Source of the DNA: Tachypleus tridentatus
Taxonomy: Eukaryota > Arthropoda > Merostomata > Xiphosura > Limulidae
DNA length: 64,000 bases
Assembly (NCBI RefSeq): GCF_004210375.1
Contig: NC_134825.1
Span: 62,001-126,000 of the forward strand
Direction of reading: 5' to 3'
Below the pieces are notes generated by a model. That model was not told the origin of the DNA and did no database searches. It worked only from the letters and a program-made list of their open reading frames with translations. Of this stretch, positions 1-51,848 are shown piece after piece. How positions within the stretch are numbered: the stretch's first letter is position 1; every line of letters begins with the position of its first letter. A program made the translations under genes and the position numbers.

Positions 1-745
1 AGTTGCCTCAAGATTCTAGCATAAGAAGTCAAGATGTAGTAGTTTACATCTTTTAAATGGACAAACTATTGATAATCAGTGTAAGGGTAAAAAATAACTT
101 AGGTTAAGAATCCAGATTGGCTTCTTAAAATGACATCTGCAGGTACATCTGCAGAAAGTTCAGGTTTGATTCCCACCAGCAAGCAAAACTCGTAGCTTTG
201 AATTTTAACTAGAATTTATTAGCCCCCTGGTGTGTGTGTGTAAATTGTAACACTGAAACACATATAGCCTATAGTGTAGTTTTATTTTCAGTATTGTTGA
301 AAATGCCCTCAGTAAGTCTGATGGTTTATACAGCTAATACTTTCATTTTAATGCACATAGTGGAGACTAGACTTGCAGACTTTAACAACAATTTATTCTT
401 ACACAATGAATAAATTTAGTAAGTTTTACAGGTATCCAGTTCCAGATGGTATACAGAAAATAGCTGAACTATTCTTATATCTTAAGTAAATTAGAACTTT
501 TAGTTTTCACCTTTGGAGAAAGCTGGGATGTTAGGTGCATTTGTACATCCTAGTGTGTATACATGTCAGAAAATGTATTTCTGGCAAACAACATTTTTAA
601 AATTTGTTGGGCGTGAAAACACTATGTCACTCAATGCACTTAATTCTTGAATAAGATGGGCATATAATCCTAGGAAGTAACAAATTCTTAATAAGATTTG
701 GTGAACTTTCCAAGCTGCTATTTATGCTTGAAACTTTGTTTACAG
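1..745 (+). other. Mitoferrin intron 2, partial (left copy)
   Basis: This is non-coding AT-rich sequence ending in the acceptor TTTACAG at 739-745. It pairs with right-arm intron sequence 47556-48295. In the right arm exon 2 begins only about 40 bases beyond the point that pairs with base 1, so the left copy of exon 2 should lie immediately outside the window if the repeat continues. No gene is seen inside. Confidence 0.75.
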
Positions 746-802
746 GAGCTGCTGGTTGTTTAGCAACATTGGTCCATGATGCAGTGATGACTCCAACAGA
801 TG
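746..802 (+). CDS. Mitoferrin exon 3, left copy
   Basis: This 57-bp exon has acceptor TTTACAG before it and donor GTAAGATG after it. It enters and leaves in phase 1. It encodes AAGCLATLVHDAVMTPTD, and with the next exon it completes PTDVIK, the second of the three mitochondrial-carrier signatures (PX[DE]XX[KR]). It is identical to 47499-47555 on the other strand. Exons 1 and 2 of this copy are not in the window. The family assignment (SLC25A28/SLC25A37, inner-membrane iron importer) rests on exon 4 and on the right-hand copy. Confidence 0.85.
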
Positions 803-1066
803 GTAAGATGACTATCTTTGTGTGAGAACGTAACTGATGTGCGTAACCCTAATTATGTTGATTCTGTTATGGTAATAACAGTTAATTTATATCAGAATTT
901 TTACAAAAGGTGCTACCAGTAGAAAGTTATAGATGTTCTAGGATAGGAGTATATGTTTTAGTGGCATGTATACTTTTTCTAATACGTATACGCTTAAGCC
1001 TTTTGTGTGTGTGTGTGATTCATAGTTATATGTTTGGATTAATGATGAACTAACTTCAATTTTCAG

Positions 1067-1669
1067 TTATCAAGCAAAGAATGCAGATGTTCTCTAGCCC
1101 ATACAGAAACACCATTGATTGTGTGAGAAGAATATGGCAGAGAGAAGGTGTAAGAGCATTCTATCGCAGTTACTCCACCCAATTGTCCATGAACATCCCC
1201 TTCCAGAGTATTCACTTTATGACCTATGAGTTTATGCAAAACGTAACAAATGAAAAACGGACGTACAGTCCCACGGCTCACATGGTGTCGGGGGCTGTAG
1301 CTGGAGCATTTGCCGCTGCCGCGACTACCCCACTGGACGTGTGTAAGACTTTACTAAACACCCAAGAACGTGAAACTCTTCATGTGATAAAAAAATCCCA
1401 CGCTAATGGCTTATTTAATGCAGCAGTGACCGTGGTACAAGTTCAAAGGTTTGAAAGGCTATTTCCAAGGCTTACAAGCACGCAGTAGTTTCACAGGTGC
1501 CCTCAACGGCAGTGGCATGGTCAGTTTATGAATTTTTCAAATACGCGTTTCAGTGTAGACACACTTTAAATGACCAAACTGTTGATCAATCAAGCCCAAC
1601 ACCATTGCAGGAAGATCTCTACCAACAGCAGCTACGGGTACTATTGGTGTAGCTCCAACACCCATGTGA
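1067..1669 (+). CDS. Mitoferrin last exon, left copy (frame broken)
   Basis: This exon encodes the last half of a mitoferrin, a six-helix carrier of the inner mitochondrial membrane that brings iron into the matrix for haem and Fe-S cluster synthesis. It opens after acceptor TTTTCAG with [16 protein letters not shown], and carries the third carrier signature PLDVCK at about 1333-1350. The frame is open to about 1432, where an extra G (GTGGTAC against GTGTAC in the right copy) breaks it. A further extra C near 1482 and a missing T near 1620 follow. Restoring those three differences gives 602 bp and ends at TGA 1667-1669. Against the right copy it also has A for V just before the third signature and AF for VL near 1548-1553; the right copy matches family usage better. 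The breaks look like consensus errors rather than decay, because the right copy is intact at each of them. Confidence 0.88.
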
Positions 1670-4600
1670 AAGGGTAGGCATAAATTGTTCTAATATGATT
1701 ATAGTTTATTGGTGGTCATGGATTGCGCTGTTTGCTACATCATTCTTGTTTTCTTAATTAGTGAACATATGTTGTCATTATGAGATATATGCTATTGTAT
1801 TCTAATCAGAACTTTAATATTGCCATGATACAATAAACATTAGAATATTGTCATTACGCTGTTATAATACAATGAATACTAGAATATTACTCTATTTAAG
1901 ACCTCAATAATTTGATTTAGATTACATGAAATACAAAGTTTACTGTTCTTGATTTGACAGTATTGTTAAACAGTTCTGTTGTGTTTCTAAATGTTTCACT
2001 GACATCTTTTATCAGGTTGAAGTTATGAACTAGCTTGATAAACCACAGTGCAGTTTTTTTAGTCAGATAATATTTATAACATGTCTCTCTTAGCATTTCT
2101 AGTTCTATGTCACAGTTCCTGGTGGGCTGCTGCTCAGTTCAGTTCTGCCTTTGCTGTTTTATATGATTCTTAACACACTGTGTAAACATCCTTCTCAAGC
2201 CTGGCTCTGAAGGTGGAGCAACTTAAGAATTGTGTTAAGAAACATCTCTTAATTTTGTACTTATAAATTTTAATGATGAATTGGTGGTAGACTATAATAT
2301 TAGTTTTCCTACTTTTATGTGTAAAATATTGTCTGCTTGATATAAAAGTTACTATTGAATTTTGAAGTTAAACTGTCTAAAGCAATGGGATAAAGAGAGA
2401 GATAAGTACTGTAACTAAACGTCATAAGTTTTAACATATTTGTAACTTACAGATTCCTATCCTCCAGCTAAGCTCTATAAGGATTATTAGTATCATTATC
2501 TCTGTGATCACTGCCTAGTAAAAGGATCACTTTGCAGTGAAACTGAGGTGAACTTATAAAACCAGCTCAAGAATTATGTTATGTGCCTTCAGTTTAGTGG
2601 TTAAGTCACAGTATATGTATTGTTCATTGATTTACTTCTAGTATCAGTGTTTAATCCATGGTAAAATGACAGAACTTCTCACTATCGATTGGTATACTTG
2701 TTAACAACAATCTTTTTTCTTTTCAGTTACTGAAGTCAAAAGAAGTGGAATGTCTAAGGGGGAATCGAGATATTTTTTAAACATCTTACAAAGCATTTTC
2801 TTTTCTAATTCAGCAATGTGTTAATTTTTTTTAAACACGATAACTTGTCAAAGGTTATTTTTCAAATATACAATATTTTAATTGTCCCTTCAGTTTCTTT
2901 CTGTTGTTTTGATTTAGAACTGAAACAAGAATAGCTAAAGTTTTCTAAAGATGTGTGCCTTTCTCAAGAACATCTGCCAAAAGAGTAAGGTTTTTACAGT
3001 TCTGAAGCTTGCTAGATAACAAGATAATAAACCACATGTAAGTTGTAAGAAGTAATTTCCATTAATAGGGTAAAGCCAGAAAAGATATGAGCTGTACATA
3101 GGAACAAGCAATAATCAGTGGAGCTAATTGTTTAATTATGATTACCTTTTCCAAGGCATCATAAATTACATTGATAGTACATAATAAGACCTGAAATTTT
3201 CCTTTACTGGCAAACTTTAGGAGATACTTTTCTACAACATGAAACCATCATTTTGTCGACACCTCTGTAGTGGTCACAGATTAAGTCAATTTACCAACAG
3301 GATTGCTTTCAGTAATTTTCAAGAACTGGTTGTTTGAGTTACTCAGAATTATATGTTTAGTTATTAGCTTCTATAAGCACATGGCATTGATTAGTAGAAA
3401 TTTTCTTGGTTCCTTAAAAAAAGAACATTCCTTTATTTTAAAAGTCATTTATTAGCAAAAAGATGAAATTTGCCTATAAGAGAAATGTTTGTACTTTATC
3501 TGATGTGTTAATTCTTTATAAATAAATAAACGTATATTTAATGTTTGTTTTGGATGTGTGCTAACATGCAGAAGGTGGTAAAACATGACCTATTACTATT
3601 CTATACCCAAAACTTCCACCTAGTGATGTTTTCTGTAAATGTATTTGAGTCACAGAATTACTTTTTATGGTTCAAAGTGCTCTCTTGTATCTTTAAAAAT
3701 ATTAAATACCCTAAACGTCAAAACGTTGAGTAAACTACTGAATAAATCTTCTGCTGCTTCAAAATGTAAGAATTTTGATTTAAAAAAATAATTACGCTTT
3801 GCCAAAACATAGAAAGCAGACTACAGTCTGAAGTAGAAAATTTGGTTTACAAAACTGGCTGCATTTCTTCGTCGAAAAAAACATTTTAATTTCTCAACTT
3901 TTTCTATCAGAAATACAGTTGACCTTGTCTTTGACTTCAATAAGGTCACATCTATTGAGTTGAATTTGCTGGTAAACCTTGATACCCAATTTTAGAAACA
4001 TCCCAATAGCTGATTGGTCAATACTTAACAGTTCTGGTTGGAAAGTATACCAGGTTCTCTAGCATGGGTCTGGCACACACATAGCTCCAACTTCTTGTCA
4101 ACATATACTTTTGAAAAGTTTCATTGTACCGTACATTAATTTCTAGAACCATAAGATCACACATAAAACATTCCAAGAGTTCAAATGTTGTGACAGTTTT
4201 CTTTACATTCACTTATTTAAACCAACCATAACTACAGCTGAAGAACTGAGCTATTAGTTCATACAACTAATTTCCAACAGACAGTTATTAGTGTCACAAA
4301 ACTTAATCAATAGATCATATACTCAAAATATTACTATCATTATTATTAATTCATTAGTGACATGACTCACCAAAATTAGAGTTTAATTATTACTTAATAT
4401 TATTCCAAATCTTATGTTATTAAGTAATGAGCTCATGTAGTCACCCAGCTCGTGTTGTTTGATAAAAAAAAAGAAAAAGTTACATTTTAAAAAGTCCTTT
4501 CAAACAACCTAACAGGTTCAATACCACAATGTACCACATCCATGTTGTTCCGTGGCCAACCTGATAAAACTCATCTTCATGCCATCAGTGATGCATCTTT

Positions 4601-4881
4601 TTAGTGTAACATGAATATTTTGCTAATTTCTGTATACCTAGTTGTATTAAAATTACTGAAAACAAAGTAAATGTGACTGTTGGAAGACTTCAATTTCTTG
4701 TTCAAGAGCAAAACAGTCCCACAAAGTTTCAATAAATAGTCATAATAGTCTCTGATAAAGAGAGGATTTCTTACTAAAATTCTGAACATTTTATCAAAAC
4801 AGGTGTACTTTTTACAATAATTTATCTAATGGATGTACAATCCACCTAAAAAACATGAAACTGAAAGAAAGAAAGAACAAG
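1670..4881. other. Intergenic stretch between convergent genes, left copy
   Basis: About 3.2 kb of AT-rich sequence lies between the mitoferrin stop and the stop of the coiled-coil exon, so it should hold both 3' UTRs. It is matched almost base for base by 43416-46635 on the other strand. Short open frames (for example 3545-3733 and 4601-4789) have no recognisable domain, splice context or compositional signal, and I do not call them genes. Confidence 0.7.
1832..1837 (+). promoter_or_regulatory. Candidate polyadenylation signal of mitoferrin (left copy)
   Basis: AATAAA lies about 163 bases after the mitoferrin stop codon, and is conserved in the right arm at 46468-46473. It is the first canonical signal downstream of the stop. 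In DNA this AT-rich, chance occurrences are common, so the assignment is tentative. Confidence 0.35.
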
Positions 4882-5194
4882 TTACTCCGAGTCATTATTT
4901 AACTGTTCTGTAAATTCATCTAACTTACAACATATCTTCTGTTCGAAGTCATCCATCTGCTGTCTAAACTTGATAGACAGCTGGTTCTCCAGGGCCTGAA
5001 GTTGGCCCTCTAGAAGTTCTTTGATTTGTAAGTTCAGCTGTTGCTGACACGTTTGGAAACATTCTCGTAGACTGGCTTGGAGCTCTGCTGTCATTCTTTG
5101 AGAGTGTTCATCAAGCTGCTTTTCTATCAATTCCACAAACTTCTGCTCCAATTTCTGGATAGTTTCATGGAAGTTTTTATTGGAAATTTGATCC
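4882..5194 (-). CDS. Last exon of an unidentified coiled-coil protein, left copy
   Basis: The exon is read on the minus strand from an acceptor ending TTTTGTAG (just above 5194) to TAA at 4882-4884. It is 313 bp: one leading base plus 103 codons and the stop. The peptide begins DQISNKNFHETIQKLEQKF and ends DEFTEQLNNDSE. It is rich in Q, E, L and K with heptad-like spacing of L, I and F throughout, so one long coiled coil is predicted. There is no membrane segment and no recognisable catalytic motif. Cysteines cluster in a CFQTCQQQ stretch. The whole peptide is identical to the right-arm copy. Its 5' exons should lie beyond the satellite (higher coordinates) but none is seen before the gap. 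I do not recognise the family. Confidence 0.75.
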
Positions 5195-8100
5195 CTACAA
5201 AACACAGGAACAAGTTATATCATAAAGTAGTTCTTCAAACATAAACAGCAAAGCTCAGAAATAAAATGCGCAATTCTTATCAACCTTATTTTTTCACCTA
5301 GCTAAGTAATTATCAACCTTCTATCCTCACCTAGCTGTAATTATCACCCATCCATCCTCACTCCAGCTAATTATCAACCATCCATCCTCACCTAGCCAAG
5401 TAATTATCAACCTTCTATCCTCACCTCACCAAGTAATTATCAACCTTCTATCTCACCTCACCAAGTAATTATCAACCTTCTAACCTCACCTAGCTGGTAA
5501 TTATCAACCTTCTAACTCACCTAGCTAAGTAATTTATCAACCTTCTATCCTCACTCTAGCTAAGTAATCAACTTTCTATCCTCACCTAGCTAAGTAATTC
5601 AACCTTACTATCTCACTTAGCTGGGTAATCAAACCTTTCTATCTCACCTTGCTGGTAATCAACTTTCTATCCTCACTCGCCACTTAATTATCAAACTTCA
5701 GTCACTACCTAACCAAGTAATTATCAACCTTCTATCCTCACCTAGCCAAGTAATTATCAACCTTCTATCCTCACCTAGCCAAGTAATCAACCTTCTATCC
5801 TCACCTAGCCAAGTAATCAAACCTTCTATCCTCACCTTGCCAAGTAATCAACCTTCTATCCTCACCTAGCCAAGTAATTATCAAACTTCAGTCACTAATG
5901 AGTAGAGTGCTTTTCAATATTCAGTCACTACCTAGCAGAGTTATTATGAAAAGTCAGTCACTACCTAGCACAGTTCTTATCAAATTTCAATCATTACCTA
6001 GCCAAGTAATCATCAACCTTCTATCCTCACCTTGCTAAGTAATCATCAACCTTCTATCCTCACCTTGCTAAGTAATCATCAACCTTCTATCCTCACCTTG
6101 CTAAGTAATCAACCTTCTATCCTCACCTGCTGCATCAACCTTCTATCTCACCTAGCTGTAATTATCAACCTTCTATCCTCACCAACTGCTGTAATTATCA
6201 ACCTCTTATCTCACCTAGCTGAGTAATCAACGATTTCCAGCTGGTAATAATCAACCTTCTATCCTCACCTAGCCAAGTAATTATCAACCTTCTATCCTCA
6301 CCTAGCTGAGTAATCATCAACCTTCATTCTCACCGAGCCAAGAAATTATTCAACTTTCTATCCTTACCTAGTAGAGTACTTATCAAACTTCAGTCATCAC
6401 CAAGCCAAGTAATTATCAACCTTCTATCATCACCTAGCAGAGTTCTTACCAAACTTCAGTCATTACCCAGCTGCAATCATCAACCTTCTATCCTCACCTC
6501 GCAGTAATTATCAAACTTCAGTCACTACCAAGAAGAGTTCTTATCAAACTTAATTCACTACTGAAGCAGAGTTCTTATCAAACTTCAGTCACTACCTAGC
6601 TAAGAAATTATCAACCTTCTATCCTCACCTAGCAGAGTTCTTTCCAAACTTCACTCATAACCTAGCTAAGTACTTACAACCTTCTAACCTCACCTGGCCA
6701 AGTAATTATCTATCTTCTATCCTCACCTATCCAAGTAATTATCAACCTTCTATCCTCACCTAGCTAAGTAATCATCAACCATGTATCCTCACCTAGCTAA
6801 GTATTAATCAACCTCCTTCTCTCACCTAGAAGAGTTCTACTCAACTTCTCACTCTATAACCTAGCTAAGAAATTATCAACCTTCTATCTCACCTAGTAGA
6901 GTTCTTCCAAACTTCACTCAAAACCTAGCTGGTAATTATCAACCTTCTAACCTCACCTGGCGAGTAATTATCTACCTTCTATCTCACCTATCCAAGTAAT
7001 CATCAACCATGTATCTCACCTAGCTGAGTAATTATCAATTCTATCCTCACCCCTGCCAAATATTCATCAACCATCTATTTTCACCTAGCAGAGTTCTTAT
7101 CAAACTTCAATCATTACCTAGCTAAGTAATTATCAACCTTATTTCCTCACCGAGCCATGTAATTATAAACCTTCTATCATCACCTCAGAGTTCTTACCAA
7201 ACTTCAGTCATTACTTAGCCAAGTAATTATCAACCTTCTATCCCCACCTAGCCAAGTAATTATCAAACTTCATTCACTACAGAGCAGAGATCTTATCAAA
7301 CTTCAGTCACTACCTAGCCAAGTAATTATCAACCTTCTATCCTCACCTAGCCAAGTATTCAAGCATATATCCTCACCTGGCCAAGTAATAATCAACCTTC
7401 TATCCCTACCTAGTAGAGTTATTACCAAAACTTCATTCATCACTAAGCCAAGTAATTATCAACCTTCTATCATCACCTAGCAGAGTTCTTATCAAAATTT
7501 AGTCACTACCAGCAGAGTTCTTATCAAACCTCAATCCTCACCTAACCAAGAAATTATCAACCTTCATTCTCACCGAGCCAAGTAATCATCAACCATGTAT
7601 CCTCACCTAGCCAAGTAATTATCAACCTCCTATCCTCACCCTGCCAAATATTCATCAACCGCTATTTTCACCTAGCAGAGTTCTTATCAAAATTCAGTCA
7701 CTACCGAGCAGAGTTCTTATCAAATTTCAGCCACAACCTAGCTAAGAAATTATCAACCTTCTCTCCTCACCTAGAAGAGTTCTACCAAACTTCACTCATA
7801 ACCTAGCTAAGAAATTATCAAACTTATATCTCACCTAGCTAGTAATTACTAAACTTCTATCCTCACTATGCTGTAATTATGAACCTTCTATCCTCACCGA
7901 GCTAGTAATTATCAACCTTCTATCCTCACCGAGCTAATTATCAACCTTTCTATCTCACCGAAGCCGTAATTATCAACCTTCTATCGTCACTGCTGTAATT
8001 ATCAACGTTTTATCCTTCACTGAGCTAAATACTTATCAACCTTTCTAACCTCTACCTAATTGCAATATCAACCTTCTATCCTCACCTAGCTAAGTAATTA

Positions 8101-11100
8101 TCGACCATCTATCTCACTCTATCTAAGTAACTATCAACCTTCTATCCTCACCTAGCTAAGTAATCATCAACCTTCTATCCTCACTGAGCCACGTAATTAT
8201 CAATCTTCTATCCTCACCGAGCCACGTAATTATCAATCTTCTAACCTAACCTAGCAGAGTTATTATCAGACTGCAGTCACTACCTAACCAAGTAATTATC
8301 AACCTTCTAATCTTAACTAGCCAAGTATTTATCAACCTCCTATCCTCACCTACCCAAGTATTCAACCATCTATCCCCACCTGACCAAGTATCAATTATCA
8401 ACCTTCTTTCATCATCTAGTGGAGTTCTTACCAAACTTCAGTCACTACCTAGCGAAGAAATTATCAACCTTCTATCCTCACCTAATAGAGTTCTTACCAA
8501 ATTCTCACACATAACCTAGCTAAGAAATTATAAAATTTCTATCCTCACCGCCAAGTAATTATCAACCTTCTATCCTCACCAAAACAAGTAATTATAAACC
8601 TTCTATCCTCACCCAAACAAGTAATTATGAACCTTCTATCCTCAACGAGCTGGTAATTATCAACCTTCTATCTCTCAACGAGCCAAGTAATTATCAACCT
8701 TCCATCCTCACCTAGACAAGTAATTATGAACCTTCTATCCTCACCTCCTCAAGTAATTATTAACCTTCTATCCTCACCTAGCTGAATAATCATGAACCAT
8801 CAAGCAGAGTTCTTATCAAACTTCAGTCACAACCTAGACAAATAATTATCAACCTTCTATCCTCACCTAGCTAAGTATTCAAGCATATATCCTCACCTGC
8901 TAAGTAATAATCAACATTCTATCCCTACCTAGCAGAGTTATTAAAACTTCAGTCATCACCAAGCCAAGTAATTATCAACCTTCTATCATCACCTAGCAGA
9001 GTTCTTAACAAACTTCAGTCACTACCTAGCTAAGAAATTATCAACCTTCTATCCTCACCTAGCAGAGGTCTTTCCAAACTTCACTCATAACCTAGCCAAG
9101 TAATTATCAACCTTCTAACCGCACCTGGCAAAGTAATTATCTACCTTCTATCCTCACCTATCCAAGTAATCATCAACCTTCTATCCTCACCTAGCTAGTA
9201 ATCATCAACTATGTATCCTCACCCAGCTAAGTAATCATCAACCATGTATCCTCACCTAGCTAAGTAATCATCAACCTCCTATCCTCACTCTAGCCAAATA
9301 TTCATCAACCATCTATTTTCACCTAGTAGAGTTCTTATCAAATTCAGTCACTACTGAGCAGAGTTCTATCACCTCAGCCACAACCTAGCTAAGAAATTAT
9401 CAACCTTCTCTCCTCACCTAGAAGAGTTCTTACCAAACTTCACTCATAACCTAGCCAAGAAATTATCAACCTTCTATCCTCACCTAGCCAAGTAATTATC
9501 AAACTTCTATCCTCACCATGCTAAGTAATTATCAACCTTCTATCCTCACTGAGCTGGTAATTATCAACCTTCTATCTCACCGAGCAGTAATTATCAACGT
9601 TTCTATCCTCACTGAGCTTACTATCAACCTTCAACCCCACCTAATCAAGTAATATCAACCTTTTCTATACTTCACCTAGCTGGTAATCATCGACCATCTA
9701 TCCTCACCTGGCAAGTAATTATCAACCTTCTATCCTCACCTATCCAAGTAATTATCAACCTTCTATCCTCACCTAGCTAAGTGGTATCATCCTCTTTTCT
9801 ATCCTCACTGAGCTAAGTAATTATCAATTCTATCCTCACCTGAGCTAAGTAATTATCAACCTTCTATCCTCACCGAGACAAGTAATTATCAACCTTCTAT
9901 CCTCACTGAGCCAAGTAATTATCAACCTTCTATCATCACCTAGCTGAGTAATCATGAACCATCAAGCAGAGTTCTTATCAAACTTCAGTCACAACCTAGA
10001 CAAATAATTATCAACCTTCTATCCTCACCTAGCAGAGTTCTTGCCAAACTTCAGTCATTACCTAGCCTAGTAATTATCAACCTTCTATCATCACCTCGCA
10101 GAGTTCTTACCAAACTTCAGTCATTACTTAGCTGGCATTATCAACCTTCTATAAACACCTAGCCAAGTAATTATCAAACTTCATTCACTACAGAGCAGAG
10201 ATCTTATCAAACTTCAGTCAGTACCGAGCCAAGTAATTATCAACCTTCTATCCTCACCTAGCCAAGTATTCAAGCATATATCCTCACCTGGCCAAGTAAT
10301 AATCAACATTCTATCCCTACCTAGCAGAGTTATTACCAAAACTTCAGTCATCACCAAGCCAAGTAATTATCAACCTTCTATCATCACCTAGCAGAGTTCT
10401 TAACAAACTTCAGTCACTACCTAGCAGAGTTCATACCAAACTTAAACTCATAACATACCCAATGAATTATCAAACTTCTATCCTCACCAAGCCAAGTAAT
10501 TATCAAACTTATATCCTCACCTAGCCAAGTAATTATCAACCTTCTATCCTCACACCCAGCTGAGTAATATCAACCTTCAATCTCACCTAGCTGAGTAATC
10601 ATCAACCTTCTATCCTCACTTAGCTGAGTAATTATCAACCTTCTATCTCACCTAGCTGAGTAATCATCAACCTTCTAACCCTACCTAATCAAGTGCTCTA
10701 ATATCAACCTTCTATACTCACTCTAGCTGTAATTATCAACCATCTATCTCACCTAGCTAAGTAATTATCAACCTTCTATCCTCACCTATCCAAGTAATTA
10801 TCAACCTTTCTATCCTCACTGAGCTACGGTATCAACTTTCTATCCTCACTGAGCTTTTGGTACTATCAACGTTCTATCTCACTGAGCTACCACTATCAAC
10901 CTTTCTAACCTTCTACTCTAATTGTAATATCAACCTTCTATACTCACCTAGCTAAGTAATTATCAACCATCTATCCTCACTACCAAGTAATTATCAACCT
11001 TTCTATCTCACCTATTCAAGTAATCATCAACCTTCTATCTCACTCTAGCTAAGTAATTATCAACCTTTCTATCTCTCACTGAGCTACGTAGTATCAATTT

Positions 11101-14100
11101 CTATCCTCACTGAGCTAAGTAATTACAACTTTCTATCTCACCTAGCTAAGTAATTATCAACCTTCTATCCTCACTGAGCTACTGTAATTATCAACCTTTA
11201 TCATCACTCTAGTTGAGTAATTATCAACCTTCTATCCTCTACCTAGCTGCAGTACTATCAACCTTTCAATCTCACCTAGCTGAGTAATTATCAACCTTTC
11301 TATCTCACTTAGCTGAGTAATTATCAACCTTCTATCTCACCTAGCTGAGTAATTATCAACCTTCTATCTCACCTAGCTGAGTAATTATCAACCTTCTATC
11401 TCTCACCTAGCTGAGTAATCAACAACTTTCTATCCTCACCTAGTTGAGTAATTATCAACCTTCTATCTCACCTAGCTGAGTAATTATCAACCTTCTATCC
11501 TCACCTAGTTGAGTAATTATCAACCTTCTATCTCACCTAGCTGAGTAATCATCAACTTTCTATCCTCACCTAGCTGAGTAATTATCAACCTTTCTATCCT
11601 CACCTAGCTGAGTAATTATCAACCTACTATCCTCACCTAGTTGAGTAATCATCAACCTTCTATCCTCACCTTGCTGAGTAATCATCAACCATCTACACTC
11701 ACCTGACCAAGTAATTATAAACATCCTATCCTCACCTAGACAAGTAATCATCAACCATCTATCCTCACCCAGCAGAGTTCTTATCAAAATTCAGTCACTA
11801 CCAGCAGAGTTCTTATCAAACTCAATCCTCACTCTAACCAAGAAATTATCAACCTTCATTCTCACCGAGGCAAGTAATTATCAACCTTCTATCCTCACCG
11901 AGCCAAGTAATTATCAACTTTCTATCCTCACCTAATAGAGTACTTATCAAACTTCAGTCATCACGAAGCTAAGTAATTATCAACCTTCTATCATCACCTA
12001 GTAGAGTTTTACCAAACTTCAGTCATTACCTAGCTGGTAATTATCAACCTTCTATCCTCACCTCGCCAAGTAATTATCAAACTTCAGTCACTACCAAGAA
12101 GAGTTCTTATCAAACTTAATTCACTACAAAGCAGAGTTCTTATCAAACTTCAGTCACTACCTAGCTAAGAAATTATCAACCTTCTATCCTCACCTAGTAG
12201 AGGTCTTTTCCAAACTTCACTCATAACCTAGCTAAGTAATTATCAACCTTCTAACTCACCTGGCAAAGTAATTATCAACCTTCTATCCTCACCTATCTGG
12301 TAATCATCAACCTTCTATCCTCACCTAGCTAGGTAATCATCAACCATGTATCCTCACCTAGCTAAGTAATCATCAACCATGTATCCTCACCTAGCTGGGT
12401 ATTATCAACCTCCTATCTCACTCCAAGCCAAATATTCATCAACCATCTATTTTCACCTAGCAGAGTTCTTATCAAATTCAGTCACTACTGAGCAGAGTTC
12501 TTATCACCTCAGCTACAACCTAGCTAAGAAATTATCAACCTTTCTCCTCACCTAGAAGAGTTCTACAAACTTCACTATAACCTAGCTAAGAAATTATCAA
12601 ACTTCTATCCTCACCTAGCTAGCATTTATCAAACTTCTTATCCTCACCATGCTAAGTAATTATCAACCTTCTATCCTCACTATGCTAAGTAATATCAACC
12701 TTCTATCCTCACTGAGCTGGGTAATTATCAACCTTCTATCTCACCGAGCTGGCATTATTATCAACTTTCTATCTCACTGAAGCCAAGTAATTATCAACCT
12801 TTATCGTCACTGAGAGCTATTATCAACCTTTCTATCCTCACTGAGCTACTAATTATCAACCTTTCTAACTCCTACCTAATCAAGACAATATCAACCTTCT
12901 ATACTCACTCTAGCTAAGTAATCATCAACCATCTATCCTCACCTGCTGGTAATTATCTTACCTTTCTATCCTCACCTATCCAAGTAATCATCAACCTTCT
13001 ATCCTCACCTAACTGCAATTATCAACCTTCTATCTCACTGAAGCCAATGTATTATCACCTTTCTATCCTCACCTGAAGCACGTAATTATCAATTTCTAAC
13101 TCTAACCTAGTAGAGTATATTATCAGACTGCAGTCACTACCTAAATCAAGTAATATCAACCTTTCTAATCTTAATCTAGCTAAGTAATTATCAACCTCCT
13201 ATCTCACCTACCCAAGTATTCAACCATCTATCCCTACCTGACTAAGTATCACTATCAACCTTCTTCTATCATCTAGCTGAGTAATCATCAACCTTCTATC
13301 TCACCTAGTTGAGTAATCATCAACCTTCTATCCTCACCTAGCTGAGTAGTTATCAACCTTCTATCCTCACCTTGCTGAGTAATCATCAACCATCTATCTC
13401 ACCTAGCAGAGTTCTTATCAAAACCCAAATCACTACCAGCAGAGTTCTTATCAAACCTCAATCTCACCTAACTAAGAAATTATCACCTTCTATTCTCACC
13501 GAGCCAGGTATTACATCAAACTTCTATCCTCACTATGCTAAGTAATTATCAACCTTTATCTCACTGAGCAGTATTTATCAACTTTCTATCTCTCACTGAG
13601 CTGGTAATTATCAACGTTCTATCTCACTGAGCTGGCCACTATCAACCTTCTAACCTCACCTAATAAGTAAATATCAACCTTCTATACTTCACTCTAGCTG
13701 GTAATTATCGACTATCTATCTCACCTGGCTGGTAATTATCAACCTTCTATCTCTCACCTAGCTGGTAATTATCAACCTTCTATCTCACTCTAGCTAGTAA
13801 TCATCAACTTTTATCCCTCACTGAGCTAAGTAAGTATCAATCTTCTATCCTCACCGAGCCACGTAATTATCAATCTTCTATCCTCACCTAGCTAAGTAAT
13901 CATCAACCTTCTATCCTCACTGAGCCAAGTATTATCAACCTTCTATCATCACCTAGCTGAGTAATCATCAACCATCAAGCAGAGTTCTTATCAAACTTCA
14001 GTCACAACCTAGACAAATAATTATCAACCTTCTATCCTCACCTAGCAGAGTTCTTGCCAAACTTCAGTCATTACCTAGCCTAGTAATTATCAACCTTCTA

Positions 14101-37600: not shown

Positions 37601-40600
37601 TGATGATTACTCAGCTAAGTGAGGATAGAAGGTTGATGATTACTCAGCTAGGTGAGGATTGAAGGTTGATAATTACTTGGCTAGGTGGGGATAGAAGGTT
37701 GATAATTACTTGGCTCGGTGAGGATATAAGTTTGATAATTACTTGGCTTGGTGAGGATAGAAGTTTGATAATTCATTGGGTATGTTATGAGTTTAAGTTT
37801 GGTATGAACTCTGCTAGGTAGTGACTGAAGTTTGTTAAGAACTCTGCTAGGTGATGATAGAAGGTTGATAATTACTTGGCTTGGTGATGACTGAAGTTTT
37901 GGTAATAACTCTGCTAGGTAGGGATAGAATGTTGATTATTACTTGGCCAGGTGAGGATATATGCTTGAATACTTGGCTAGTGAGGATAGAAGGTTGATAA
38001 TTACTTGGCTCGGTACTGACTGAAGTTTGATAAGATCTCTGCTCTGTAGTGAATGAAGTTTGATAATTACTTGGCTAGGTGTTTATAGAAGGTTGATAAT
38101 TACTTGGCTAAGTAATGACTGAAGTTTGGTAAGAACTCTGCGAGGTGATGATAGAAGGTTGATAATTACTAGGCTAGGTAATGACTGAAGTTTGGCAAGA
38201 ACTCTGCTAGGTGAGGATAGAAGGTTGATAATTATTTGTCTAGGTTGTGACTGAAGTTTGATAAGAACTCTGCTTGATGGTTCATGATTACTCAGCTAGG
38301 TGATGATAGAAGGTTGATAATTACGTGGCTCAGTGAGGATAGAAGGTTGATGATTACTTGGCTAGGTGAGGATAGAAGATTGATAATTACGTGGCTCGGT
38401 GAGGATAGAAGATTGATACTTACGTGGCTCAGTGAGGATAGAAGGTTGATGATTACTTGGCTAGGTGAGGATAGAAGGTTGATGATTACTTGGATAGGTG
38501 AGGATAGAAGGTAGATAATTACTTGGCCAGGTGAGGATAGATGGTCGATGATTACTTGGCTAGGTGAGTATAGAAGGTTGATATTTACTTAATTAGGTGG
38601 GGTTAGAAGGTTGATAATTATTTGGCTCAGTGAGGATAGAACGTTGATAATTACTTGGCTCGGTGAGGATAGAAGGTTGATAATTACTTGGCTCGGTGAG
38701 GATAGAAGGTTGATAATTACTTGGCATGGTGAGGATAGAAGTTTGATAATTACTTGGCTAGATGAGGATAGAAGTTTGATAATTTCTTGGCTAGGTTATG
38801 AGTGAAGTTTGGTAAGAACTCTTCTAGGTGAGGAGAGAAGGTTGATAATTTCTTGGCTAGGTTGTGGCTGAAATTTGATAAGAACTCTGCTCGGTAGTGA
38901 CTGAATTTTGATAAGAACTCTGCTAGGTGAAAATAGATGGTTGATGAATATTTGGCTAGGTGAGGATAGGAGGTTGATGATTACTTGGCTAGGTGAGGAT
39001 ACATGGTTGATGATTACTTGGCTAGGTGAGGATACATGGTTGATGATTACTTAGCTAGGTGAGGATAGAAGGTTGATGATTACTTGGATAGGTGAGGATA
39101 GAAGGTAGATAATTACTTTGCCAGGTGCGGTTAGAAGGTTGATAATTACTTGGCTAGGTTATGAGTGAAGTTTGGAAAGACCTCTGCTAGGTGAGGATAG
39201 AAGGTTGATAATTTCTTGGCTAGGTAGTGACTGAAGTTTGTTAAGAACTCTGCTAGGTGATGATAGAAGGTTGATAATTACTTGGCTTGGTGATGACTGA
39301 AGTTTTGGTAATAACTCTGCTAGGTAGGGATAGAATGTTGATTATTACTTGGCCAGGTGAGGATATATGCTTGAATACTTGGCTAGGTGAGGATAGAAGG
39401 TTGATAATTATTTGTCTAGGTTGTGACTGAAGTTTGATAAGAACTCTGCTTGATGGTTCATGATTATTCAGCTAGGTGAGGATAGAAGGTTAATAATTAC
39501 TTCGCGAGGTGAGGATAGAAGGTTCATAATTACTTGTCTCGGTGAGGATGGAAGGTTGATAATTACTTGGCTCGTTGAGGATAGAAGGTTGATAATTACT
39601 TGGCTCGTTGAGGATAGAAGGTTCATAATTACTTGTTTCGGTGAGGATAGAAGGTTTATAATTACTTGTTTCGGTGAGGATAGAAGGTTGATAATTACTT
39701 GGCTCGGTGAGGATAGAAATTTTATAATTTCTTGGCTAGGTTATGTGTGAAATTTGGTAAGAACTCTATTAGGTGAGGATAGAAGGTTGATAATTTCTTC
39801 GCTAGGTAGTGACTGAAGTTTGGTAAGAACTCCACTAGATGATGAAAGAAGGTTGATAGTGATACTTGGTCAGGTGGGGATAGATGGTTGAATACTTGGG
39901 TAGGTGAGGATAGGAGGTTGATAAATACTTGGCTAGTTAAGATTAGAAGGTTGATAATTACTTGGTTAGGTAGTGACTGCAGTCTGATAATAACTCTGCT
40001 AGGTTAGGTTAGAAGATTGATATTACATTAGCTTCGGTGAGGATAGAAGATTGATAATTACGTGGCTCAGTGAGGATAGAAGGTTGATGATTACTTGGCT
40101 AGGTGAGGATAGAAGGTTGATGGTTACTTGGATAGGTGAGGATAGATGGTCGATGATTACTTGGCTAGGTGAGTATAGAAGGTTGATATTTACTTGATTA
40201 GGTGGGGTTAGAAGGTTGATAATTATTTGGCTCAGTGAGGATAGAACGTTGATAATTACTTGGCTCGGTGACGATAGAAGGTTGATAATTACTTGACTCG
40301 GTGAGGATAGAAGGTTGATAATTACTTGGCTCGGTGAGGATAGAAGGTTGATAATTACTTACTCAGCTCGGTGAGGATAGAAGGTTGATAATTACCAGCA
40401 TGGTGAGGATAGAAGTTTGGTAATTACTTGGCTAGGTGAGGATAGAAGTTTGATAATTTCTTGGCTAGGTTATGAGTGAAGTTTGGTAAGAACTCTTCTA
40501 GGTGAGGAGAGAAGGTTGATAATTTCTTGGCTAGGTTGTGGCTGAAATTTGATAAGAACTCTGCTCGGTAGTGACTGAATTTTGATAAGAACTCTGCTAG

Positions 40601-43021
40601 GTGAAAATAGACGGTTGATGAATATTTGGCAGGGTGAGGATAGGAGGTTGATAATTACTTGGCTAGGTGAGGATACATGGTTGATGATTACTTGGCTCGG
40701 TGAGAATGAAGGTTGATAATTTCTTGGTTAGGTGAGGATTGAGGTTTGATAAGAACTCTGCTGGTAGTGACTAAATTTTGATAAGAACTCTGCTAGGTGA
40801 TGATAGAAGGTTGATAATTACTTGGCTTGGTGATGAATGAAGTTTTGGTAATAACTCTGCTAGGTAGGGATAGAAGGTTGATTATTACTTGGCCAGGTGA
40901 GGATATATGCTTGAATACTTGGCTAGGTGAGGATAGAAGGTTGATAATTACTTGGCTAGGTAGTGACTGAAGTTTGATAAGATCTCTGCTCTGTAGTGAA
41001 TGAAGTTTGATAATTACTTGGCTAGGTGGGGATAGAAGGTTGATAATTACTTGGCTAAGTAATGACTGAAGTTTGGTAAGAACTCTGCGAGGTGATGATA
41101 GAAGGTTTATAATTACATGGCTCGGTGAGGAAATAAGGTTGATAATTACTTCGCTAGGTAATGATTGAAGTTTGATAAGAACTCTGCTGCGTGAAAATAG
41201 ATGGTTGATGAATATTTGGCAGGGTGAGGATAGGAGATTGATAATTACTTGGCTAGGTGAGGATACATGGTTGATGATTACTTGGATAGGTGAGGATAGA
41301 AGGTAGATAATTACTCGGCCAGGTGAGGTTAGAAGGTTGATAATTACTTGGCTAGGTTTTGAGTGAAGTTTGGAAAGAACTCTGCTAGGTGAGGATAGAA
41401 GGTTGATAATTTCTTGGCTAGGTTATGAGTGAAGTTTGGTAAGAACTCTTCTAGGTGAGGAGAGGAGGTTGATTATTACTTGGCTAGGTGAGGATACATG
41501 GTTGATGATTACTTGGCTAGGTGAGGATAGAAGGTTGATGATTACTTGGATAGGTGAGGATAGAAGATAGATAATTACTTGGCCAGGTGAGGTTAGAAGG
41601 TTGATAATTACTTAGCTAGGTTATGAGTGAAGTTTGGAAAGAACTCTGCTAGGTGAGGATAGAAGGTTGATAATTTCTTGGCTAGGTAGTGACTGAAGTT
41701 TGATAAGAACTCTGCTCGGTAGTGAATTAAGTTTGATAAGAACTCTTCTTGGTAGTGACTGAAGTTTGATAATTACTTTGCGAGGTGAGGATAGAAGGTT
41801 GATAATTACTTGGCTAGGTAATGACTGAAGTTTGGTAAGAACTCTGCTAGGTGATGATAGAAGGTTGATAATTACTTGGCTTGGTGATGACTGAAGTTTG
41901 ATAAGTACTCTATTAGGTAAGGATAGAAAGTTGAATAATTTCTTGGCTCGGTGAGAATGAAGGTTGATGATTACTCAGCTAGGTGAGGATAGAAGGTTGA
42001 TAATTACTTGGCTAGGTGAGGATAGAAGGTTGATTATTACTTGGCTAGATCGTTGATTACTCAGCTAGGTGAGGATAAGAGGTTGATAATTACTTGGTTC
42101 GGTGAGGATAGAAGGTTGATAATTACTTGGCTAGGTGAGGATAGAAGGTTGATTACTTGGCAAGGTGAGGATAGAAGGTTGATTACTTGGCAAGGTGAGG
42201 ATAGAAGGTTGATGATTACTTGGCAAGGTGAGGATAGAAGGTTGATGATTACTTGGCAAGGTGAGGATAGAAGGTTGATGATTACTTGGCTAGGTAATGA
42301 TTGAAATTTGATAAGAACTGTGCTAGGTAGTGACTGACTTTTCATAATAACTCTGCTAGGTAGTGACTGAATATTGAAAAGCACTCTACTCATTAGTGAC
42401 TGAAGTTTGATAATTACTTGGCTAGGTGAGGATAGAAGGTTGATTACTTGGCAAGGTGAGGATAGAAGGTTTGATTACTTGGCTAGGTGAGGATAGAAGG
42501 TTGATTACTTGGCTAGGTGAGGATAGAAGGTTGATAATTACTTGGCTAGGTGAGGATAGAAGGTTGATAATTACTTGGTTAGGTAGTGACTGAAGTTTGA
42601 TAATTAGTATGGAGAGTGAGTGATAGAAGGTTGATTACCAGCAAGGTGAGATAGAAAGGTTTGATTACCAGCTAAAGTGAGGATAGAAGGTTGATTACTT
42701 GGCTAGGTGAGGTAGAAGGTTGATTACTTGGCTAGGTGAGGATAGAAGGTTGATAATTACTTGGCTAGGTGAGGTTAGAAGGTTGATAATTACTCGGCTA
42801 GGTGAGGTTAGAAGGTTGATAATTACTTGGTGAGGTGAGGATAGAAGGTTGATAATTACTTGGTGAGGTGAGGATAGAAGGTTGATAATTACTTGGCTAG
42901 GTGAGGATGGATGGTTGATAATTACTTGGCTAGGTGAGGATGGATGGGTGATAATTACTTGGCTAGGTGAGGATAGAAGGTTGATAATTACTTAGCTAGG
43001 TGAAAAAATAAGGTTGATAAG
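31675..43021 (-). repeat. 33-bp satellite array, right (about 11.3 kb, inverted)
   Basis: This is the same 33-bp satellite read on the minus strand, about 344 units. The visible strand shows GGTGAGGATAGAAGGTTGAT and TAATTACTTGGCTA. It is collinear with left 5276 to ~16526 in reverse, monomer class by monomer class at every place checked. The gap-proximal part 31675-35700 is indel-rich; 35700-43021 is mostly clean. Left counterparts of the clean section are noisy, and the clean left section 15280-16526 pairs with noisy right sequence. It ends against the intron just upstream of the coiled-coil exon. Confidence 0.95.
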
Positions 43022-43102
43022 AATTGCGCATTTTATTTCTGAGCTTTGCTGTTTATGTTTGAAGAACTACTTTATGATATAACTTGTTCCTGTGTTTTGT
43101 AG

Positions 43103-43415
43103 GGATCAAATTTCCAATAAAAACTTCCATGAAACTATCCAGAAATTGGAGCAGAAGTTTGTGGAATTGATAGAAAAGCAGCTTGATGAACACTCTCAAA
43201 GAATGACAGCAGAGCTCCAAGCCAGTCTACGAGAATGTTTCCAAACGTGTCAGCAACAGCTGAACTTACAAATCAAAGAACTTCTAGAGGGCCAACTTCA
43301 GGCCCTGGAGAACCAGCTGTCTATCAAGTTTAGACAGCAGATGGATGACTTCGAACAGAAGATATGTTGTAAGTTAGATGAATTTACAGAACAGTTAAAT
43401 AATGACTCGGAGTAA
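43103..43415 (+). CDS. Last exon of an unidentified coiled-coil protein, right copy
   Basis: The exon starts after acceptor TTTTGTAG at 43095-43102 and ends at TAA 43413-43415: one leading base, 103 codons and the stop. The peptide is identical to the left copy: a Q/E/L-rich coiled coil, including the stretch IKELLEGQLQALENQLSIKF, with an acidic tail ending NNDSE. It is a C-terminal fragment only; an apparent start a few codons upstream would be a GTG inside the intron, so it is not a complete small gene. The gene runs toward mitoferrin, tail to tail, with stops about 3.2 kb apart. Upstream lies about 80 bp of unique intron and then the satellite. I cannot name the family. Confidence 0.78.
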
Positions 43416-46400
43416 CTTGTTCTTTCTTTCTTTCAGTTTCATGTTTTTTAGGTGGATTGTACATCCATTAGATAAATTATTGTAAAAAGTACACCTGTTT
43501 TGATAAAATGTTCAGAATTTTAGTAAGAAATCCTCTCTTTATCAGAGACTATTATGACTATTTATTGAAACTTTGTGGGACTGTTTTGCTCTTGAACAAG
43601 GAAATTGAAGTCTTCCAACAGTCACATTTACTTTGTTTTCAGTAATTTTTAATACAACTAGGTATACAGAAATTAGCAAAATATTCATGTTACACTAAAA
43701 GATGCATCACTGATGGCATGACGATGAGTTTTATCAGGTTGGCCACGGAACAACATGGATGTGGTACATTGTGGTATTGAACCTGTTAGGTTGTTTGAAA
43801 GGACTTTTTAAAATGTAACTTTTTCTTTTTTTTTATCAAACAACACGAGCTGGGTGACTACATGAGCTCATTACTTAATAACATAAGATTTGGAATAATA
43901 TTAAGTAATAATTAAACTCTAATTTTGGTGAGTCATGTCACTAATGAATTAATAATAATGATAGTAATATTTTGAGTATATGATCTATTGATTAAGTTTT
44001 GTGACACTAATAACTGTCTGTTGGAAATTAGTTGTATGAACTAATAGCTCAGTTCTTCAGCTGTAGTTATGGTTGGTTTAAATAAGTGAATGTAAAGAAA
44101 ACTGTCACAACATTTGAACTCTTGGAATGTTTTATGTGTGATCTTATGGTTCTAGAAATTAATGTACCGGTACAATGAAACTTTTTCAAAAGTATATGTT
44201 GACAAGAAGTTGGAGCTATGTGTGTGCCAGACCCATGCTAGAGAACCTGGTATACTTTCCAACCAGAACTGTTAAGTATTGACCAATCAGCTATTGGGAT
44301 GTTTCTAAAATTGGGTATCAAGGTTTACCAGCAAATTCAACTCAATAGATGTGACCTTATTGAAGTCCAAAGACAAGGTCAACTGTATTTCTGATAGAAA
44401 AAAGTTGAGAAATTAAAATGTTTTTTTACGAGAAGAAATGCAGCCAGTTTTTGTAAACCAAATTTTCTACTTCAGACTGTAGTCTGCTTTCTATGTTTTG
44501 GCAAAGCGTAATTATTTTTTTAAATCAAAATTCTTACATTTTGAAGCAGCAGAAGATTTATTCAGTAGTTTACTCAACGTTTTGACGTTTAGGGTATTTA
44601 ATATTTTTAAAGATACAAGAGAGCACTTTGAACCATAAAAAGTAATTCTGTGACTCAAATACATTTACAGAAAACATCACTAGGTGGAAGTTTTGGGTAT
44701 AGAATAGTAATAGGTCATGTTTTACCACCTTCTGCATGTTAGCACACATCCAAAACAAACATTAAATATACGTTTATTTATTTATAAAGAATTAACACAT
44801 CAGATAAAGTACAAACATTTCTCTTATAGGCAAATTTCATCTTTTTGCTAATAAATGACTTTTAAAATAAAGGAATGTTCTTTTTTTAAGGAACCAAGAA
44901 AATTTCTACTAATCAATGCCATGTGCTTATAGAAGCTAATAACTAAACATATAATTCTGAGTAACTCAAACAACCAGTTCTTGAAAATTACTGAAAGCAA
45001 TCCTGTTGGTAAATTGACTTAATCTGTGACCACTACAGAGGTGTCGACAAAATGATGGTTTCATGTTGTAGAAAAGTATCTCCTAAAGTTTGCCAGTAAA
45101 GGAAAATTTCAGGTCTTATTATGTACTATCAATGTAATTTATGATGCCTTGGAAAAGGTAATCATAATTAAACAATTAGCTCCACTGATTATTGCTTGTT
45201 CCTATGTACAGCTCATATCTTTTCTGGCTTTACCCTATTAATGGAAATTACTTCTTACAACTTACATGTGGTTTATTATCTTGTTATCTAGCAAGCTTCA
45301 GAACTGTAAAAACCTTACTCTTTTGGCAGATGTTCTTGAGAAAGGCACACATCTTTAGAAAACTTTAGCTATTCTTGTTTCAGTTCTAAATCAAAACAAC
45401 AGAAAGAAACTGAAGGGACAATTAAAATATTGTATATTTGAAAAATAACCTTTGACAAGTTATCGTGTTTAAAAAAAATTAACACATTGCTGAATTAGGA
45501 AAGAAAATGCTTTGTAAGATGTTTAAAAAATATCTCGATTCCCCCTTAGACATTCCACTTCTTTTGACTTCAGTAACTGAAAAGAAAAAGATTGTTGTTA
45601 ACAAGTATACCAATCGATAGTGAGAAGTTCTGTCATTTTTACCATGGATTAAACACTGATACTAGAAGTAAATCAATGAACAATACATATACTGTGACTT
45701 AACCACTAAACTGAAGGCACATAACATAATTGCGAGCTGGTTTTATAAGTTCACCTCAGTTTCACTGCAAAGTGATCCTTTTACTAGGCAGTGATCACAG
45801 AGATAATGATACTAATAATCCTTATAGAGCTTAGCTGGAGGATAGGAATCTGTAAGTTACAAATATGTTAAAACTTATGACGTTTAGTTACAGTACTTAT
45901 CTCTCTCTTTATCCCATTGCTTTAGACAGTTTAACTTCAAAATTCAATAGTAACTTTTATATCAAGCAGACAATATTTTACACATAAAAGTAGGAAAACT
46001 AATATTATAGTCTACCACCAATTCATCATTAAAATTTATAAGTACAAAATTAAGAGATGTTTCTTAACACAATTCTTAAGTTGCTCCACCTTCAGAGCCA
46101 GGCTTGGAGAAGGATGTTTACACAGTGTGTTAAGAATCATATAAAACAGCAAAGGCAGAACTGAACTGAGCAGCAGCCCACCAGGAACTGTGACGTAGAA
46201 CTAGAAATGCTAAGAGAAGACATGTTATAAATATTATCTGACTAAAAAAACTGCACTGTGGTTTATCAAGCTAGTTCATAACTTCAACCTGATAAAAGAT
46301 GTCAGTGAAACATTTAGAAACACAACAGAACTGTTTAACAATACTGTCAAATCAAAGAACAGTAAACTTTGTATTTCATGTAATCTAAATCAAATTATTG

Positions 46401-46635
46401 AGGTCTTAAATAGAGTAATATTCTAGTATTCATTGTATTATAACAACGTAATGACAATATTCTAATGTTTATTGTATCATGGCAATATTAAAGTTCTGAT
46501 TAGAATACAATAGCATATATCTCATAATGACAACATATGTTCACTAATTAAGAAAACAAGAATGATGTAGCAAACAGCGCAATCCATGACCACCAATAAA
46601 CTATAATCATATTAGAACAATTTATGCCTACCCTT
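43416..46635. other. Intergenic stretch between convergent genes, right copy
   Basis: This AT-rich DNA is nearly identical to the reverse complement of 1670-4881 and holds the two converging 3' UTRs. Small differences from the left copy are scattered: a CCGG at 44168 where the left copy lacks one G, extra or missing T/A bases in homopolymer runs, and occasional substitutions. No gene, SINE or RNA structure is recognised. Confidence 0.7.
46468..46473 (-). promoter_or_regulatory. Candidate polyadenylation signal of mitoferrin (right copy)
   Basis: AATAAA on the minus strand, about 163 bases past the mitoferrin stop, corresponds to 1832-1837 in the left arm. It is tentative for the same reason: the sequence is very AT-rich. 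Confidence 0.35.
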
Positions 46636-47234
46636 TCACATGGGTGTTGGAGCTACACCAATAGTACCCGTAGCTGCTGTTGGTAAGAGATCTTCCTGCA
46701 ATGGTGTTGGGCTTGACTGATCAACAGTTTGGTCATTTAAAGTGTGTCTACACTGAAGCACGTATTTGAAAAATTCATAAACTGACCATGCCACTGCCGT
46801 CGAGGGCACCTGTGAAACTACTCGTGCTTGTAAGCCTTGGAAATAGCCTTTCAAACCTTTGAACTTGTACACGGTCACTGCTGCATTAAATAAGCCATTA
46901 GCGTGGGATTTTTTATCACATGAAGAGTTTCACGTTCTTGGGTGTTTAGTAAAGTCTTACACACGTCCAGTGGGGTAGTCACGGCAGCTGCAAATGCTCC
47001 AGCTACAGCCCCGACACCATGTGAGCCGTGGGACTGTGCGTCCGTTTTCATTTGTTACGTTTTGCATAAACTCATAGGTCATAAAGTGAATACTCTGGAA
47101 GGGGATGTTCATGGACAATTGGGTGGAGTAACTGCGATAGAATGCTCTTACACCTTCTCTCTGCCATATTCTTCTCACACAATCAATGGTGTTTCTGTAT
47201 GGGCTAGAGAACATCTGCATTCTTTGCTTGATAA
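46636..47234 (-). CDS. Mitoferrin last exon (exon 4), right copy
   Basis: On the minus strand this exon starts after acceptor TTTTCAG, completes PTDVIK across the splice, carries the third signature PLDVCK, and ends ...[11 protein letters not shown] and TGA at 46636-46638. The C-terminal part includes [20 protein letters not shown] and [10 protein letters not shown], typical of the last mitoferrin repeat. It is 599 bp, three short of the 602 expected. Each missing base lies in a homopolymer: A at 47044-47047, G at 47009-47012, A at 46909-46914. The frame is therefore wrong for about 130 bp between the first and last of these and then recovers. The left copy is intact at all three, so I read them as consensus errors and the gene as functional. 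Confidence 0.92.
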
Positions 47235-47498
47235 CTGAAAATTGAAGTTAGTTCATCATTAATCCAAACATATAACTATGAATCACACACACACACAAAA
47301 GGCTTAAGCGTATACATTATTAGAAAAAGTATACATGCCACTAAAACATATACTCTATCCTAGAACATCTATAACTTTCTACTGGTAGCACCTTTTGTAA
47401 AAATTCTGATATAAATTAACTGTTATTACCATAACAGAATCAACATAATTAGGGTTACGCACATCAGTTACGTTCTCACACAAAGATAGTCATCTTAC

Positions 47499-47555
47499 CA
47501 TCTGTTGGAGTCATCACTGCATCATGGACCAATGTTGCTAAACAACCAGCAGCTC
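47499..47555 (-). CDS. Mitoferrin exon 3, right copy
   Basis: This 57-bp exon has acceptor TTTACAG and donor GTAAGATG on the minus strand, and is identical to left 746-802. It follows exon 2 in phase 1 and leads into exon 4 in phase 1. It encodes the start of the fourth transmembrane helix region of the carrier, including HDAVMTPTD, which ends in the first part of the second carrier signature. The intron to exon 4 is 264 bp and the intron from exon 2 is 781 bp. Confidence 0.9.
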
Positions 47556-48336
47556 CTGTAAACAAAGTTTCAAGCATAAATAGCAGCTTGGAAAGTTCAC
47601 CAAATCTTATTAAGAATTTGTTACTTCCTAGGATTACGCCCATCTTATTCAAGAATTAAGTGCATTGAGTGACATAGTGTTTTCACGCCCAACAAATTTT
47701 AAAAATGTTGTTTGCCAGAAATACATTTTCTGACATGTATACACACTAGGATGTACAAATGCACCTAACATCCCAGCTTTCTCCAAAGGTGAAAACTAAA
47801 AGTTCTAATTTACTTAAGATATAAGAATAGTTCAGCTATTTTCTGTATACCATCTGGAACTGGATACCTGTAAAACTTACTAAATTTATTCATTGTGTAA
47901 GAATAAATTGTTGTTAAATGCAAGTCTAGTCTCCACTATGTGCATTAAAATGAAAGTATTAGCTGTATAAACCCTCAGACTTACTGAGGGCATTTTCAAC
48001 AATACTGAAAATAAAACTACACTATAGGCTATATGTGTTTCAGTGTTACAATTTACACACACACACCAGGGGGCTAATAAATTCTAGTGTAAATTCAAAG
48101 CTACGAGTTTTGCTTGCTGGTGGGAATCAAACCTGAACTTTCTGCAGATGTACCTGCAGATGTCATTTTAAGAAGCCAATCTGGATTCTTAACCTAAGTT
48201 ATTTTTTACCCTTACACTGATTATCAATAGTTTGTCCATTTAAAAGATGTAAACTACTACATCTTGACTTCTTATGCTAGAATCTTGAGGCAACTGGAAA
48301 AAATTTAGACAATTTGACACAGTAACAAATTTTTAC

Positions 48337-51825: not shown

Positions 51826-51848
51826 CATATATATATATATACATATAT
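51826..51848. repeat. (TA)n microsatellite
   Basis: A short alternating AT run interrupted once by C. A similar one is at 53658-53674. Confidence 0.85.

Follow-up and report, generated by a model that had tools for sequence, protein, structure and literature searches.

Is the long inverted repeat around a run of 500 N near the start of sequence NC_134825.1 (hereafter C1) a true palindrome of the Tachypleus tridentatus genome, or was one locus joined to itself during assembly? The window analysed here is the 64,000-nucleotide stretch C1:62001-126000 of assembly GCF_004210375.1 (205 sequences, 2,167,478,450 bases in total), whose two inverted arms each carry the end of a mitoferrin-like gene beside a satellite with a 33-bp unit. 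Our comparison of the sequences suggests, with a probability of about 0.84, that the palindrome is an assembly artefact in which one haplotype was assembled twice and joined head to head, while the other haplotype lies on another sequence of the assembly, C6. A locus scaffolded to itself head to head had been proposed by a previous, sequence-only reading of the window, and this proposal is favoured by the contig ends, the redundancy and the register of the satellite arrays.

Contig limits and the extent of the inverted repeat

Successive contigs from the start of C1 are labelled a to e. The 500-N gaps in C1:1-160000 are located at 46532-47031, 93175-93674 and 138721-139220, and all four N runs found in C1:1-230000, including the one of the window, are exactly 500 long, as is the single N run of C6:139940001-140030000. 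These gaps delimit contig b (C1:47032-93174, 46143 bp), which carries the left arm, and contig c (C1:93675-138720, 45046 bp), which carries the right arm. In window coordinates, the layout is as follows.

1..31174, + strand: part of contig b within the window, left arm (limits from the 500-N gaps)
31175..31674, no strand: scaffold gap between contigs b and c, 500 N, sole N run of the window
31675..64000, - strand: part of contig c within the window, right arm; its unique part is collinear with C6 from 139978428, until C1 131151
43021..63281, - strand: full unique right arm, of which 48296-63281 pairs with C1:47032-62000 beyond the window

The sequence-only reading had described 1-16526 and 48295-31675 as reverse complements in the same order, and indeed these arms align on opposite strands at 94.1% over 16830 columns; the next-best array register reaches 78.7% among the 60 best alignments listed. 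Its other descriptions of the centre were borne out as well: the placeholder measures exactly 500 N, the satellite shared by the arms (given as 11 kb) is spanned by an in-register alignment of 11.3 kb, and the match of the right array begins directly after the gap, at a base equivalent to left position 16526. Two of its statements need correction. Positions 1 and 48295, taken as the limits of the repeat, merely reflect the window edge, as the right arm continues to 63281, and the region 49000-64000, intended as a single-copy control for read depth, is itself inside the duplicated stretch.

With the arrays masked, C1 47032-67276 aligns in inverted orientation with 125281-105021 (99.34% identity, 31 mismatches and 91 gap openings over 20.3 kb), and the inverted copy terminates where contig b begins. 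The arms reach the contig ends at C1 47032, on the 93174 side and at 93675, and at the inverted join itself no contiguous sequence is present, but only the 500-N placeholder. A genome search with window 49000-52000 returned 22 matches, comprising four near-full copies (99-100%) and 18 short ones. One of the related loci, C6:139978428-140004547, is collinear with C1:105021-131151 (99.01%, 76 mismatches, 26.2 kb), and the unique part of contig b (C1 47032-67276) aligns to C6 139998678-139978428. Outside the satellite, contig b is entirely alignable to this C6 locus and contig c is alignable except for 12 junction bases, so that, with the satellite and these 12 bases set aside, neither contig reaches C1-private sequence. 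The C6 satellite (139948907-139978427) lies on the same side of the locus and likewise abuts a 500-N gap.

A real inverted duplication on C1, very recent or gene-converted and with satellite at its centre, would account for arms that are 99.3% identical across 20.3 kb and for a satellite in register. This reading is hardly credible, because the outer and inner ends of the repeat coincide exactly with contig ends, the join is crossed by no sequence, the quality decays towards the gap from both sides (see below), and neither contig has a C1-private flank. We therefore rejected a genuine palindrome, both repeat ends being contig ends and no contig linking the repeat to C1-private sequence.

The end of contig c has a structure of its own. 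Its tail, C1:131164-138720, repeats C1:110156-117730 of the same contig in direct orientation (99.5%, 4 mismatches, 7.6 kb), is preceded by the 12 junction bases, which match neither side by eye, and also aligns to C6, where the corresponding stretch is without this direct-copy arrangement. It may stem from a chimeric read, from a loop made by the assembler or from a tandem duplication that one haplotype really carries. In a related scenario, one haplotype would carry a truly rearranged version of the C6 locus, with an inverted and partly tandem duplication around the satellite that the other haplotype lacks, and contigs b and c together with the direct tail of c would be its fragments; we consider this very improbable.

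Three copies of the locus compared

The unique arm common to contig b, contig c and the C6 copy was aligned with MAFFT in 20,366 columns, with the tail of contig c added as a fourth row. Private to C6 were 48 substitutions together with 29 indels, of which 21 measured one base, 4 measured 2-9 bp and 4 at least 10 bp. Contig b alone carried 26 substitutions and, among its 61 indels, 54 single-base ones and 7 of 2-9 bp; contig c alone carried 19 substitutions and, among its 17 indels, 16 single-base ones and 1 of 2-9 bp. Neither contig had a private indel of at least 10 bp; seven more indel sites, one of them of at least 10 bp, differed in all three copies. In this alignment the two contigs differ from each other by 45 substitutions (0.22%); C6 is separated from b by 74 (0.37%) and from c by 67 (0.33%). 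The mismatches counted by blastn for the three pairs, in the same order, were 31, 65 and 76.

The private differences are not of the same kind in the three copies. Of the 26 substitutions private to b, 16 are situated at most 3 bases from another one, and the same holds for 4 of the 19 private to c and 2 of the 48 private to C6; many of the b-private substitutions look like misplaced small indels, and most of the c-private ones do not. Private one-base indels occurred in homopolymer runs for 46 of 54 in b, 16 of 16 in c and 18 of 21 in C6, compared with about 50% of all bases lying in such runs. Since the C6-private indels are equally rich in homopolymers, this signature alone cannot separate error from variation. 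The large indels give a cleaner signal, as four are private to C6 and none to b or c. We read b and c as the same haplotype because they share their variants relative to C6, have no private indel of at least 10 bp and carry arrays in register (see below). Contigs b and c would accordingly be one haplotype with independent errors, and C6 would carry real variants, although the isolated substitutions of c leave some doubt.

The status of the C6 copy bears on a further reading, in which b and c would still form a false palindrome of one haplotype, but of a true second locus, i.e., a recent segmental duplicate rather than the allele of C6. The 48 substitutions and four indels of at least 10 bp private to C6 (a fifth such site differs in all three copies) are compatible with it, as are a C6 array that differs from those of b and c, as for a recent paralogue, and the tandem-like tail of contig c, which is missing from the C6 stretch examined. 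We nevertheless find a second locus unlikely, since besides the satellite and the 12-base junction there is no C1-private sequence, and since the divergence of b and c from C6 remains at the allelic level. In addition, one sample of contig a on the same scaffold (C1:20001-23000) is a 98-100% copy of C6:122547544-122550458, and thus the contigs examined at the C1 start (a through this single 3-kb sample, b and c) all duplicate C6 loci. The other haplotype is most likely represented by the C6 copy, which is probably an allele rather than a paralogue.

The satellite arrays and the gene copies

The satellite ends at the gap on either side. Both arrays were delimited with Tandem Repeats Finder (TRF).

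5277..31174, + strand: 33-bp satellite, left, 25.9 kb, ending at the gap, with k-mer typicality declining over the final 5-6 kb (TRF 33-bp row to 30847, other tandem rows to 31164)
31675..43020, - strand: 33-bp satellite, right, 11.3 kb, cut by the gap, in register with left 16526-5277

The satellite holds most of the differences between the arms, with 359 of the 375 substitutions and 415 of the 442 indels; the unique arm within the window (1-5276) has 16 substitutions and 27 indels, 24 of one base. Over the 11.3 kb of aligned array the largest indel is at most 8 bp, which means that no 33-bp unit was gained or lost between b and c. Moreover, the b and c arrays have 1037 unique 25-mers in common, 596 of them at offsets 0-100, whereas the C6 and b arrays share 272 at scattered offsets and the C6 and c arrays 175; the C6 array keeps register with neither b nor c.

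The quality of the two arrays varies along their length. In bins of 500 bases, the arms differ by substitution at a rate of 0-1% in their unique part; at left 5.5-12.5 kb the rate is mostly 1-5%, with one bin at 0, and at left 12.5-16.5 kb it is 3-7%. The typicality of 13-mers drops towards the gap from about 0.90 to 0.39 across the last 5 kb of contig c and from about 0.86 to 0.56-0.59 across some 8 kb of contig b, and it also dips elsewhere in both contigs; the C6 array, with values of 0.75-0.99, exhibits no comparable fall towards its gap. At left-equivalent 15-16.5 kb, which is the interior of the b array, 62 of 81 difference clusters single out the right copy as odd and 6 the left one, 13 being ties. 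Along the entire array, counted from 5300 onwards, there are 429 clusters; the more typical copy is the right one in 184 of them and the left one in 126, and 119 are ties. Contigs b and c thus appear poor in places and each appears poor near the gap, for which a real palindrome would offer no reason.

Between C6 and the two C1 contigs the satellite has lost nearly all register, though the flanks differ by just 0.33-0.37%. This hints at a fast turnover of the array and suggests that the register of such a satellite can be lost even where the flanks of two alleles (or close paralogues) have diverged so little, a contrast that errors in b and c may exaggerate. A period-47 tandem repeat of 16.6 copies at window 61577-62357, by contrast, kept its length, with an equal copy number at C1:47949-48731 and C6:139996976-139997756.

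Three pieces of the mitoferrin-like gene are found in the window.

1054..1640 (ends approximate), + strand: last coding exon, left (Mito_carr, 3.7e-26 for the 1054-1488 frame)
46636..47247, - strand: last coding exon, right (Mito_carr, 5.4e-9 for the 46636-46929 frame)
48305..48634, - strand: upstream exon (Mito_carr, 1.6e-10)

Pfam assigns these pieces to the mitochondrial carrier family, NCBIfam gave no match for any of the three, and a search of solved structures with one piece (window 1054-1488) returned nine sequences, all other mitochondrial carriers; the name mitoferrin is a working assumption that follows the sequence-only reading and the sequence of the family. The frame of the left last exon is broken by three one-base differences (at 1434, 1483 and 1620) and that of the right one by three others (left-equivalents 1253, 1290 and 1389), while the C6 exon (C6:139982001-139982612) is a single open frame of 204 codons. 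Two copies broken at different places beside an open C6 copy make the pattern of independent consensus errors. The upstream exon is mirrored at C1:61656-61996, immediately outside the left edge of the window, and occurs in the assembly as four copies at 100%, with two more matches at 80-81% (on C13 and C7).

An identical open frame of 110 amino acids adjoins the satellite in both arms (window 4882-5214 on the - strand, 43083-43415 on the + strand); it is coiled-coil-like by eye, with Pfam matches only below the curated cut-offs. Among the eight proteins searched against Pfam, three open frames of the right flank had no match, and Rfam and tRNA scans of the window gave no match either.

The sequence-only reading had left open whether the arms were haplotypes or duplicate contigs. 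Two true alleles of one locus in b and c (i.e., a heterotype duplication), with C6 as a close paralogue, would agree with the 45 substitutions over 20.2 kb (0.22%), which is in the usual range of heterozygosity, and with the isolation of 15 of the 19 c-private substitutions. But private indels of at least 10 bp are absent from b and c and number four in C6, the reading frame of the last exon is disrupted in both arms, and the b and c arrays are in register where the C6 array, next to a flank diverged by 0.33-0.37%, is not. Duplicates of the same haplotype thus fit better, and the two-haplotype variant is weaker and seems quite unlikely, even if the 45 substitutions remain to be accommodated.

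Several observations weigh against a single haplotype assembled twice. The count of substitutions between b and c is not far under those obtained against C6 (74 for b, 67 for c), the isolated c-private ones could be real variants, and one-base indels are homopolymer-rich in C6 too. In the satellite, transitions account for 251 of the 359 substitutions separating the arms, a pattern expected of real variation, and the left copy is usually the atypical one at 5-14 kb (10-11 kb excepted), so that errors are not confined to contig ends. In addition, the last 500 bases of contig c match b in register at 91.2% and match contig c's own sequence 4.35 kb away at 91.8%, and the 7.6-kb direct copy that ends contig c is not explained by a simple duplication of contigs.

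Probable formation of the locus, its surroundings and known systems

Taken as a false palindrome, the locus probably formed as follows. A single locus, made of the mitoferrin-like gene beside the 33-bp satellite, would have been assembled twice from one haplotype as contigs b and c, presumably from error-rich long reads, and both contigs would have broken within the satellite. A scaffolder, probably based on Hi-C, would then have joined these redundant copies head to head across a spacer of 500 N and placed them among small contigs at the C1 start, the other haplotype being the embedded copy C6:139978428-140004547 with its last exon open. The b/c pair would thus be a homotype (under-collapsed) false duplication, and b/c relative to C6 a heterotype one. 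For quality control, this means that a mitoferrin-like exon probably present once per haplotype appears four times in the assembly, and that counts of genes, surveys of inverted repeats and maps of satellites based on this genome would be inflated at this locus.

The surroundings were considered as well. The first four contigs of C1 fall in size (46531, 46143, 45046 and 41689), which is suggestive of a size-sorted heap of leftover contigs, but the order is only suggestive and the fifth contig (more than 48.5 kb) breaks the trend. As the window lies near the C1 start, a subtelomeric duplication was also considered and set aside after a negative scan for telomere-like repeats: runs of at least three units of TTAGGG, CCCTAA, TTAGG or TTTAGGG were absent from C1:1-160000 and C6:139940001-140030000, the other reverse complements being outside the scan. 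Contig a contains two direct copies of an 11-kb stretch (C1:3454-14585 and 36524-46160, 32-33 kb apart), identical at 97-99% in the first part and about 89% in the remainder, and an 84-bp tandem repeat whose translation is C2H2 zinc finger-like by eye. Further on, C1:139221-190000 (contig d and the start of e) is densely filled with varied tandem arrays, with periods of 25, 66, 27, 85, 32, 33, 34, 39 and 37 bp, among others; contig d has a tandem array at either end, in a region rich in minisatellites of about 25-85 bp.

False duplications of both types have been described. Heterotype duplications are those in which both haplotypes were kept, and homotype duplications occur near contig boundaries or as sequence under-collapsed because of read errors (PMC8081667); gaps between the pairs and low depth are given as marks of false duplication (PMC9516828). 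The b/c pair resembles the homotype class of these accounts (PMC8081667, PMC9516828) in that the same sequence appears twice, with small and probably error-type differences, at contig boundaries and with a gap between. It therefore bears the positional marks of a homotype duplication, and likely the error-only mark too. It differs from the contig-overlap type of the same sources (PMC8081667, PMC9516828), in which the copies are in tandem with a gap, whereas b and c are inverted. In turn, b/c relative to C6 is like the heterotype class of these accounts, with allelic-level divergence, separate scaffolds and redundant contigs in the primary assembly; haplotype-level variants do separate them, namely the C6-private substitutions and large indels counted above. 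An assembly made with 3D-DNA and 500 N between contigs is reported in PMC8926247, and the spacing found here fits this tool, though it is no proof that it was used. A literature search, by titles, retrieved no direct account of haplotigs joined head to head.

The arms of the locus also have to be placed beside those of real palindromes. True large palindromes, e.g., those of mammalian Y chromosomes, have long inverted arms of high identity, and in this respect the locus is like them. Unlike them, its centre is not contiguous, its ends are contig ends, and satellite flanks a 500-N gap on both sides.

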